In this document: in pieces, positions 47,288-50,257 of the stretch
How the letters are laid out: every line of letters starts with the position of its first letter
Numbering within the stretch: the stretch's first letter is position 1
Origin: Luteolibacter sp. SL250
Lineage (GTDB): Bacteria; Verrucomicrobiota; Verrucomicrobiia; Verrucomicrobiales; Akkermansiaceae
Reading direction: 5' to 3'
DNA: 64,000 bases
NCBI RefSeq assembly: GCF_026625605.1
Contig: NZ_CP113054.1
Span: forward strand, 2,790,001 to 2,854,000
Position numbers and translations under genes: made by a program
The notes under the pieces: generated by a model
Database searches by the model: none
Told to the model about the DNA's origin: nothing
Seen by the model: the letters and a program-made list of their open reading frames with translations, nothing else

Positions 47288-48310
47288 TCAGGGCTTGGGC
47301 ACGGTCTCGATGGTCGCGAGGATCCGGGAGGCGATCTGGTATGGATCACCCTGGGAGTTCGGACGACGGTCCTCGAGATAGCCACGATAGGCGTCACCCT
47401 TCACGAAGCTGTGCGGAACGCGGACGGATGCACCACGGTCAGCGACTCCGTAGGAGAACTTGTCGATCGACTGGGTTTCGTGGAGGCCGGTGAGGCGCAT
47501 GTGGTTGTCCGGACCATAGACGGCGATGTGCTCGGCGGTGTGGTCGCCGAATGCAGCCATCAGGGCCTCGAAGTAGGCCTTGCCGCCCTTTTCACGGAGG
47601 TAGTCCGTGGAGAAGTTCGCGTGCATGCCGGAACCATTCCAGTCGGTGTCACCCAGCGGCTTGCAGTGGAAGTTGATGTCGATACCGTACTTTTCGCAAA
47701 GGCGGATCAGGAGGTAACGGGCAACCCACACTTCGTCGGCGGCCTTCTTGGAGCCTTTGCCGAAGATCTGGAATTCCCACTGGCCTTTCGCCACTTCGGC
47801 GTTGATGCCTTCGTGGTTGATGCCTGCGTCAAGGCAGAGGTCGAGGTGCTCCTCAACGATCTGGCGGGCGATGTCACCCACGTTCTTGTAGCCGACGCCG
47901 GTGTAGTATGGACCTTGCGGGGCTGGGTAGCCATCGGTCGGGAAGCCGAGGGGACGGCCGTCCTGATAAAGGAAATATTCCTGCTCGAAACCGAACCATG
48001 CGCCCGGATCGTCCAGGATGGTGGCACGGGAGTTGGAAGGATGGGGGGTCACACCATCTGGCATCATGACTTCGCACATCACGAGCACGCCGTTGCGGCG
48101 GGTGGTGTCCGGATAGAGGGCCACTGGTTTCAGGACGCAGTCGGAGCTGCGGCCTTCAGCCTGTTGGGTCGAGCTACCGTCAAAGCCCCAGTTTGGCAGT
48201 TCTTCAAGCTTCGGGAATGCGTCGAAATCCTTGATGAGGGTTTTGCTGCGGAGGTTCGGGGTTGGCTTGTAGCCGTCGAGCCAGATGTATTCCAATTTGT
48301 ATTTGGCCAT
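47288..48310 (-). CDS. Glutamine synthetase type II (eukaryotic-like)
   Basis: A 340-residue enzyme of the GSII group, shorter than type I. It contains the beta-grasp domain with NWGFDGSSTQQAEG, the metal and substrate motifs FGFEQEYFLYQDG, KGQWEFQIFG, NGSGMHANFSTDYL, the ammonium/glutamate-site region HETQSIDKFSYGVADRGASVRVP, and YLEDRRPNSQGDPY. It joins ammonia to glutamate using ATP in the cytoplasm. No adenylylation tyrosine motif is expected in GSII, so regulation is probably transcriptional. It stands alone; the roughly 150-base upstream spacer must hold its promoter. Confidence 0.93.
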   Translation of the reverse strand: MAKYKLEYIWLDGYKPTPNLRSKTLIKDFDAFPKLEELPNWGFDGSSTQQAEGRSSDCVLKPVALYPDTTRRNGVLVMCEVMMPDGVTPHPSNSRATILDDPGAWFGFEQEYFLYQDGRPLGFPTDGYPAPQGPYYTGVGYKNVGDIARQIVEEHLDLCLDAGINHEGINAEVAKGQWEFQIFGKGSKKAADEVWVARYLLIRLCEKYGIDINFHCKPLGDTDWNGSGMHANFSTDYLREKGGKAYFEALMAAFGDHTAEHIAVYGPDNHMRLTGLHETQSIDKFSYGVADRGASVRVPHSFVKGDAYRGYLEDRRPNSQGDPYQIASRILATIETVPKP

Positions 48311-48463: not shown

Positions 48464-49270
48464 CTACAAGTGGATCACTATGAGCGTGGTATCATCGCCG
48501 CCGGCACTGCGGAGAGCCCGTTCCATCATCTTTTCCAACGCTCCGGTGGGGCTGAGGTCTTCCGACAGGGCATTGGCGATGTGCTGTTCGGTAAGCCCGT
48601 CGATGAGTCCGTCGGAGCAGATCAGGAAGCGGTCACCGGGGAGATAGGGGACTGCTGCCAGATGGGGCCGCATCCTTGGGTGGCCGCCACCGATGACTTC
48701 GTAGAGCGCCGACCGACGAGGGTGGGAGCGATATTGCATCTCGCCGATCTGGCCCCGTTTCCACTGATCCCAGGCGAGGGTGTGGTCTTTGGAGAGCTGG
48801 GTGAGTTCTCCACCGCGTGAAAGGTAGATCCGGGAGTCACCCACATTCGCCAGATAGAGGTTCTCCGGGGTGAACCACGCCAGTGCCACCGTGGCGGACA
48901 TCCCTTTCTGTTCCTCACAGGATGCCGCGGCCACGTTGATCTGCTCATGCACGGCCCGGAGCGTGTCGCCGAGATGCTCCAGTGAGTCCGGGAAGAAACC
49001 TGAAGCCGCGGCTTTGAATGTCTCCGGGATCATTTCGCTCATCCCACGCAACAAAAGGGAGGAAGCCAGATCTCCCGCATTTCCGCCACCCATCCCATCA
49101 GAGACCGCGAAAACTAGGTCACATTCGGACAAGGTCCTGCTCCCGGATTCCGGGAGCGATTCAGCTCCGCCAAGGCCCGAAGCGAATGCCACCACGGAAT
49201 CGTCATTCCGGGGTTTGCGGGATCCGCTGTGGGATCGATAGGACCAGTGGAAAAGCGCGCCTTCGGACAC
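48464..49270 (-). CDS. PP2C-type serine/threonine phosphatase
   Basis: A 268-residue cytoplasmic phosphatase with all PP2C motifs: RKPRNDDSVVAF, VFAVSDGMGGGNAGDLAS, GMSATVALAWF, LANVGDSRIYL, LTQLSKDHTLAWD, FLICSDGLIDGL and GGDDTTLIVIHL. The Asp residues bind two metal ions. Residues about 150-200 form the flap region (WKRGQIGEMQYRSHPRR). No membrane segment is present. It lies 24 bases downstream of a very small kinase-fold gene on the same strand, so the two may be an opposed kinase/phosphatase pair. Confidence 0.9.
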   Translation of the reverse strand: MSEGALFHWSYRSHSGSRKPRNDDSVVAFASGLGGAESLPESGSRTLSECDLVFAVSDGMGGGNAGDLASSLLLRGMSEMIPETFKAAASGFFPDSLEHLGDTLRAVHEQINVAAASCEEQKGMSATVALAWFTPENLYLANVGDSRIYLSRGGELTQLSKDHTLAWDQWKRGQIGEMQYRSHPRRSALYEVIGGGHPRMRPHLAAVPYLPGDRFLICSDGLIDGLTEQHIANALSEDLSPTGALEKMMERALRSAGGDDTTLIVIHL

Positions 49271-49294
49271 GGTGGGTTTTTCTGGGAGGATGGA

Positions 49295-49723
49295 TCAGAT
49301 ATTGGCGGCGGGCTGGGATGCATCCTCCGATGGCGTGGGGAACGGCAGGATTTCCGCCAACTCGAAGTCGATGATGCAGAAACGCGCCAGTTTGTCCGAG
49401 TAGGTGATGTTCCGCGGCTCCGCGTCCAGATGCCGGACTCCGTAGTCACGCTCCAGCGCGGCGAAAAGCTGGTCCGCCCGCTCTTTCGGGATATGGGGGG
49501 CGGGCATCCCGCAGTTGGTGGAGACGAAGTAGTTCTCCTCCGGATGTTCCTCGATCACCTTCGGCACGTAAGGGCAGCCCCGTTGCTCGAGCACCTTCAG
49601 CACCTCCACTTCCGTGGCGTAGCGCTTGTCCGCATCGGTGCCGCGCAGGCGCTTGTGGACATTCCCGTAGAAGTCGATGCGGACGTGGGAACGGATTCCG
49701 TCTTTGATCGGTTGGATGGACAT
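49295..49723 (-). CDS. Very small protein-kinase-fold protein
   Basis: A 142-residue protein. Despite its size it shows the kinase core in order: possible beta-3 Lys K24 (NVHKRL), helix-C Glu E40 (ATEVEVLKVLEQRG), hinge-like YFVSTN, catalytic-loop H98-L-D100 with N105 (RHLDAEPRNITY) and metal Asp D119 in IIDFELAEIL. No glycine-rich loop is clear and the C-lobe stops after the IDFE strand. The start MSIQPIKDGI is chosen; the frame upstream to 49771 is not conserved-looking. Activity is uncertain and it may be a pseudokinase or aminoglycoside-kinase-like relic. It precedes the PP2C gene. Confidence 0.6.
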   Translation of the reverse strand: MSIQPIKDGIRSHVRIDFYGNVHKRLRGTDADKRYATEVEVLKVLEQRGCPYVPKVIEEHPEENYFVSTNCGMPAPHIPKERADQLFAALERDYGVRHLDAEPRNITYSDKLARFCIIDFELAEILPFPTPSEDASQPAANI

Positions 49724-49840
49724 GAAAGTTGGGGGAGATGGTAGGCATTGGCTGCCCATGGCCCAGCGCAAACTTACCGGGGACCACCGTCCGGAAAATG
49801 TTCCGTTGCCAGTCGGGGTGGGCGGGTTTATAAAACCGCT

Positions 49841-50257
49841 ATGTCAGCCGTTGCCGAACAGTCCGCAGTCATTGCGAAAACCAAAGAACTTTGCGCCGAA
49901 ATCGTCGCGGACCCTTCTTTCCGTAAGAACCAGGCTAAGGTCGAGCGCTTCCTCTCCGATGACGCCGCACGCCTCCAGTACCAGAGTGTCCATGAGCGCG
50001 GCGATGAGCTCGCCCACAAGCAACGGGCCGGGATCGAACTCAGCAAGTCCGAGGTCACCGAGTTCGAAGCCGCCCGCGACGCCCTGTTCGCCAACGAGAT
50101 CGCCCGTGACTTCCTCGAAGCCCAACGGGAACTGGAGCAGCTCCAGGGGGAAATCGCCAAGTACGTCGGTGCGACCATCGAACTTGGCCGTGTCGCCACT
50201 GAGGACGACATCCAGGATTCCGGCGGTTGCTGCGGTGGTGGTTGCGGTTGCGGCTGA
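49841..50257 (+). CDS. YlbF/YmcA-like protein with Cys/Gly-rich tail
   Basis: A 138-residue helical protein starting MSAVAEQSAVIAKTKELCAE. Helices at about 5-25, 27-55, 60-78 and 80-110 (FEAARDALFANEIARDFLEA) match the YlbF/YmcA family, with QRELEQLQGEIAKYVG at the end of the domain. The C-terminus SGGCCGGGCGCG holds four cysteines in twelve residues, which could bind a metal or Fe-S cluster. In Bacillus the YlbF-YmcA-YaaT complex carries Fe-S clusters and affects RNA turnover; whether that applies here is unknown. It is divergent from the kinase-fold gene. Confidence 0.72.
   Translation: MSAVAEQSAVIAKTKELCAEIVADPSFRKNQAKVERFLSDDAARLQYQSVHERGDELAHKQRAGIELSKSEVTEFEAARDALFANEIARDFLEAQRELEQLQGEIAKYVGATIELGRVATEDDIQDSGGCCGGGCGCG

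Follow-up and report, generated by a model that had tools for sequence, protein, structure and literature searches.

A miniature kinase-fold protein (here called the mini-kinase) and a PP2C phosphatase are encoded beside a type II glutamine synthetase (GSII) in Luteolibacter sp. SL250, and both genes recur with GSII across much of the bacterial class. The link of GSII to the kinase/PP2C pair is well supported, and GSII is very likely its functional partner. From the sequence evidence we lean towards the view that the two proteins form a converter pair that controls GSII, and the likeliest route is that GSII itself is phosphorylated reversibly. More tentatively, an active mini-kinase of ~130 residues and its PP2C could together be an undescribed GSII converter enzyme, serving nitrogen control in much of the class. 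The genes lie in a window of 64,000 nucleotides, by which we mean the whole stretch of DNA analysed (contig NZ_CP113054.1, positions 2,790,001 to 2,854,000); family, order, class and phylum below are those of this strain.

Layout of the module

The mini-kinase, PP2C and GSII genes follow one another in that order (Table 1), with 24 nt between the kinase stop codon and PP2C and 153 nt between the PP2C stop codon and GSII. For the 142-residue protein, a preliminary description of this DNA had given the open reading frame and the residues K24, E40, H98-x-D100, N105 and D119, and both its coordinates and these residues are present as claimed. The reading frame is confirmed not to be due to chance, because homologues occur in 118/145 genomes of the family and 216/280 of the order. 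Comparison with plasmids gave no match for carriage of the module.

The preliminary description had also suggested a link between the pair and the YlbF-like protein encoded upstream. We found the YlbF-like gene adjoining the pair in 21 of 110 neighbourhoods, all within part of one genus. This confinement rules out a general link, and the gene is probably a local neighbour outside the module. The tail of the YlbF-like protein (CCGGG...CGC) is kept in close relatives and recalls metal binding.

Table 1 Features of the module and its neighbour (positions within the window)
Feature	Position	Strand	Evidence or remark
Miniature kinase-fold protein, 142 aa	49295..49723	minus	ATG start; residues, homologue conservation, AlphaFold2, Foldseek
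PP2C-type Ser/Thr protein phosphatase, 268 aa	48464..49270	minus	PP2C_2, Stp1 model, metal-site motifs
Type II glutamine synthetase (GSII), 340 aa; proposed target	47288..48310	minus	Pfam, PDB matches, conserved linkage
YlbF-like protein, Cys/Gly-rich tail	49841..50257	+	Com_YlbF 3e-12; divergent from kinase
K24 codon	49652-49654	minus	mini-kinase catalytic residue
E38 codon	49610-49612	minus	mini-kinase catalytic residue
H98 codon	49430-49432	minus	mini-kinase
D100 codon	49424-49426	minus	mini-kinase
N105 codon	49409-49411	minus	mini-kinase
D119 codon	49367-49369	minus	mini-kinase
E121 codon (of DFE)	49361-49363	minus	mini-kinase

A predicted kinase fold cut short after β9

We aligned the mini-kinase with 150 homologues. 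K24 and H98 were present in all 150, N105 and D119 in 148 each and D100 in 147. R34 and G72 were also invariant, and the metal motif reads DFE, not DFG, with E121 in 149/150. The catalytic set originally read in kinase order thus stood for K24, H98, D100, N105 and D119, with one correction: the αC glutamate is E38 (150/150), not E40, which occurs in 31/150. Conservation of D100 and D119 had been set beforehand as a test, and at 147/150 and 148/150 the protein passed it.

An AlphaFold2 model built with 53 homologues had a mean pLDDT of 89, with about 97 in the core. The predicted order of elements is β-β-αC-β4-β5-hinge-αE-β6-catalytic loop-β7-β8-DFE-β9, after which the chain ends. A fused homologue from Roseibacillus ishigakijimensis (L108), predicted with confidence throughout (pLDDT 94, pTM 0.88), has the first β-strand as well. 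The best PDB structures found by Foldseek were all kinases, namely Ark1 (8yv5, 6.9e-7), Bud32, RIO2, PRPK and CK2, and the TM-scores to Ark1 were moderate (0.63/0.53). With high confidence, the model describes a kinase N-lobe followed by αE, the catalytic loop and the DFG region, with the rest of the C-lobe missing. Two earlier expectations for the 142-residue protein, that its predicted structure would contain a kinase lobe and that most of the C-lobe would be absent, were borne out by the kinase matches and by the end of the chain after β9, respectively.

Sequence comparisons gave fainter signals. None of the protein family models matched the mini-kinase above its own cut-off; the Pkinase profile (PF00069) gave no match, and a GxGxxG loop is absent from the homologue alignment. 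APH (PF01636) scored 19.0 bits, below the Pfam gathering cut-off of 23.2, over the catalytic-loop stretch only. Sequence searches of the PDB returned weak matches to protein kinases (CDC7, CK2), mostly over the catalytic-loop stretch, and ArkI, Bud32 and RIO kinases were not among the best 60 PDB profile matches. The mini-kinase has the marks of the protein kinase-like fold (β3 Lys with αC Glu, and HxDxxxxN with the metal Asp), and it lacks those of a Hanks-type (eukaryotic-like) Ser/Thr kinase: a Pkinase match, a Gly-rich loop, an activation segment and αF-αI.

Across the class, H98, D100, N105 and D119 hardly vary, in stand-alone and fused mini-kinases alike. Judged by these residues, the mini-kinase looks like an active enzyme rather than a decayed pseudokinase, and it probably has kinase activity. 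The clear exceptions are two second-copy fusions, one with D100H, N105Y and D119S (L131), the other with D100N and R104E (L132); both keep their PP2C motifs intact despite the lost kinase residues. The preliminary description had offered either a minimal kinase/phosphatase switch or a pseudokinase regulating the phosphatase. Strong constraint on the complete catalytic set favours the switch, and a degraded pseudokinase is disfavoured by the near-invariant catalytic residues, those two paralogues excepted.

Related domains were also seen further afield. In a 456-residue protein from another class (L208:333-1700), a methyltransferase is fused to a mini-kinase at the C-terminus, whose motifs KxFRG, HRDxxxKN and IDFE resemble those of the family studied here. 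Two candidates from outside the class were rejected as orthologues: in G492 the mini-kinase is fused to a methyltransferase, and the protein in G518 looks like an ordinary kinase.

The phosphatase and its pairing with the kinase

The neighbouring protein matches Pfam PP2C_2 above the cut-off (2.1e-14) and the NCBIfam Stp1 model (Stp1/IreP, NF033484) at 5e-44 with 150.5 bits, below that model's cut-off of 230. The metal-site motifs DGMGG, GDSR, SDG and GDD are found in this protein and in the fused homologues, and the profile match together with the metal-binding aspartates classes it as a predicted PP2C Ser/Thr phosphatase (PPM). The PP2C part of the fused model matches PstP, Stp1 and tPphA (2xzv) in structure.

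That this phosphatase and the kinase belong together had been proposed from their adjacency in the window, and the pairing proved to be conserved, through both gene fusions and class-wide adjacency. At least 13 genera of the order encode kinase and PP2C in a single open reading frame of 402-475 aa, in which the kinase precedes the PP2C (verified at L105, L106, L108, L110, L113-L125, L131-L133, L135, L136, L139, L140, L144, L147-L149, L153 and L155). The PP2C begins soon after β9 in these proteins, as judged from the L108 model. A separate fusion is found in a genus of a different family (g54; L213-L216). A FastTree phylogeny of 160 kinase domains, in which several deep nodes are weakly supported, implies that fused and split forms interchanged at least four times and nests g54 among split forms. 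Kinase and PP2C are fused or adjacent in 58/80 loci of the genome_contigs set. Where the two are split, PP2C is usually the next gene after the kinase on the same strand, and it adjoins the kinase on the same strand in 21/21 loci from other families of the order and class (L162-L182). Genus g3 is missing this PP2C in the three genomes tested, which gave remote PP2C matches only.

Beyond the window, the SL250 genome has a 558-aa open frame with a PP2C match and, just downstream of it, a Pkinase match (G000:C1:3071686-3072990). This is apparently a composite of the known PP2C-kinase type, coexisting with the mini-kinase/PP2C pair.

Linkage and co-occurrence with GSII

We found one other constant neighbour of the kinase and PP2C, a glutamine synthetase. 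The protein in the window matches Gln-synt_C (1.4e-16) and Gln-synt_N (2.3e-11); its best PDB match is 4bax (5.8e-92), and PDB glutamine synthetases of 344-423 aa match it at 1e-75 to 1e-92. Its size, in a range of ~340-380 aa, and known GSII enzymes as its nearest relatives assign it to type II. It is the single glutamine synthetase of SL250 (the only Gln-synt_C match), and GlnE was not found in the genome.

Among 110 mini-kinase neighbourhoods, each of at least 5 kb, 67 contain GSII, compared with 21 for the YlbF-like gene. Of the 53 class genomes in the phylum sample that carry the kinase, 44 have it no more than ~2 kb from GSII, as judged by comparing positions. The arrangement varies: in the genus of SL250 and in most genera with the fusion, GSII lies downstream on the same strand; at two loci (L139, L148) it is co-directional but upstream; and family f5, like the remainder of the class, has it divergent from the module. 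Because the linkage has re-formed repeatedly in different orientations, it argues for a functional tie between the pair and GSII over inherited gene order. In genera g7 and g11 the kinase lies elsewhere, and PP2C is divergent from GSII at L189, L190, L191, L201 and L212. One genome (G015) carries two fused kinase-PP2C copies, each beside its own, different GSII.

The distribution across genomes follows the same pattern. In the phylum sample (289 genomes), the 53 kinase-positive class genomes are the same 53 that are GSII-positive. In the family sample (145 genomes), 114 have kinase and GSII, 23 neither, four the kinase only and four GSII only; the Fisher p for this co-occurrence, about 1e-18, ignores shared ancestry. 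Exceptions are six genomes from other classes and two of the small-genome genus g5, in which a more distant GSII occurs and the kinase is absent. Genus g3, which is probably Akkermansia, has neither kinase, GSII nor PII in its complete genomes of 2.2-3.5 Mb, an absence that suggests wholesale loss of a nitrogen-control set (e.g. G028, G038, G063). In three genomes (G037, G046, G118), a second GSII, ~60% identical, stands in tandem after the module GSII (L205, L206, L207).

Two genomes pose the chief difficulty for a simple model of action in cis. In G138:C16 (L131) and G115:C10 (L132), the fused copy adjoining GSII is the one with the broken kinase site, and intact copies (L217, L218) lie elsewhere. 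When GSII sequences from kinase-bearing genomes were set against a small control set, S187, T235, Y246 and Y311 were enriched, S187 and T235 with exceptions, and no Ser or Thr was found that cleanly tracks the kinase.

Proposed mechanism and alternatives

PP2C enzymes remove phosphate from serine and threonine. Kinases of this fold need the Lys/Glu pair, HxD, Asn and the metal Asp, all of which are present in the mini-kinase. It is because of these properties, and because reversible phosphorylation and 14-3-3 binding are reported to regulate GSII in plants (PMC8668187), that we infer a GSII converter pair. The mini-kinase of ~130 aa would be a competent phosphotransferase cut down to the ATP-binding N-lobe, αE, the catalytic loop and the DFE metal site. 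Kinase (forward) and PP2C (back) would act as a converter pair dedicated to nitrogen assimilation. The likeliest substrate would be the neighbouring GSII, with reversible Ser/Thr phosphorylation setting its activity or assembly; judged by linkage, the chances that GSII is the direct substrate are about even. What we infer in this proposal is phosphotransfer itself, GSII as the direct target, the direction in which GSII is affected and any signal sensed. Kinases use the C-lobe to dock their substrates, and the mini-kinase lacks it; docking is therefore probably provided by the PP2C domain, the GSII oligomer or both, and this would account for the recurrent fusion of kinase and PP2C.

Neighbourhood and co-occurrence also fit co-regulation with GSII by another route. 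The pair might be linked to nitrogen and act directly on another substrate (PII/GlnB, a transcription regulator or some other protein), with GSII adjoining because it belongs to the same regulon; we regard this as unlikely, though more plausible than the other alternatives. In cyanobacteria PphA dephosphorylates PII, whose kinase there was unknown (PMC4285133), and the fused model matches tPphA (2xzv) well. SL250 encodes PII, as does every class genome of the phylum sample that has the kinase (PII overall, as a control for co-occurrence, 200/289). However, 18 class genomes have PII without kinase and GSII, so the kinase tracks GSII and not PII, which was rejected as the tracked partner. The one PII gene of SL250 also lies 1.6 Mb from the module.

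Somewhat less likely again is an ATP/Mg-sensing role, in which the kinase fold binds nucleotide and controls PP2C (or GSII) allosterically, with no phosphate transfer in vivo. Such a sensor would suit a domain without C-lobe, activation segment or GxGxxG loop, the fused model, in which both domains are predicted with confidence, and the two paralogues that lost D100 (with N105 and D119, or R104) and kept their PP2C motifs. A mere nucleotide sensor, however, needs no catalytic D100, and the near-invariance of H98, D100, N105 and D119 over the class speaks against it.

It is very improbable that the mini-kinase acts on a metabolite or RNA, like the tRNA kinase ArkI or APH. The best Foldseek match is to an archaeal RNA kinase (Ark1/ArkI, followed by Bud32), APH gives a weak Pfam match, and a methyltransferase fusion occurs in a distant relative. 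Against this, the TM-scores to Ark1 are moderate, and the accompanying PP2C is of the Stp/PstP type, which dephosphorylates proteins. Least credible of all is an ordinary Stp-type phosphatase serving the Hanks kinases of the genome beside an unrelated mini-kinase: the genome does have 12 Pkinase matches to only two PP2C_2 matches, but repeated kinase-PP2C fusion and the shared absence in g3 make an accidental neighbour untenable.

Comparison with known systems

Control of bacterial glutamine synthetase is known mainly for GSI, through adenylylation, feedback and PII, and to our knowledge little has been established about post-translational control of bacterial GSII. In the open-licence literature we found no paper on a class-wide mini-kinase/PP2C module tied to GSII. 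Kinase-PP2C composites and small kinases are already known; the class-wide module tied to GSII appears to be new, as far as the searchable literature goes. If the proposal is true, it adds a mode of nitrogen control common to much of a bacterial class, parallel to plant GSII phosphorylation. With about half the usual size, the mini-kinase would rank among the smallest catalytic domains of kinases, which raises the question of how a kinase without a C-lobe docks its substrate.

Composite proteins of PP2C and Ser/Thr kinase are known in Pseudomonas and Deinococcus (PMC1262709). Like the fused module, they carry PP2C and a kinase-fold domain in one polypeptide, but their PP2C is N-terminal and their kinase matches Pkinase, whereas the module begins with an atypical kinase of ~130 aa that has no Pkinase match and is tied to GSII. 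Cyanobacterial PphA (PMC4285133) is likewise a PP2C in nitrogen control with a similar PP2C fold (2xzv); it acts on PII and its kinase partner is not known, whereas the module is tied to GSII and does not track PII.

The closest predicted folds, Ark1/ArkI, Bud32/PRPK and RIO2, belong to small kinases that share HxD…N and a metal aspartate with the mini-kinase. They are larger (~170-260 aa), have more of the C-lobe and act with different partners, and the likeness is one of fold only (TMq ~0.6). OspG and NleH are effector kinases with minimal kinase domains. The effector SteC is also described as having a minimal kinase domain (PMC13395416). Set beside the mini-kinase by description, these domains share its minimal character, but they belong to injected pathogen effectors, whereas the mini-kinase is encoded by a housekeeping, vertically conserved gene.

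GlnE is the bifunctional glutamine synthetase adenylyltransferase/adenylyl-removing enzyme that acts on GSI in other bacteria. It resembles the role proposed for the module in bringing two opposing activities to bear on glutamine synthetase, in one protein or a pair; the folds are unrelated, however, and where GlnE adenylylates GSI, the module would phosphorylate GSII.
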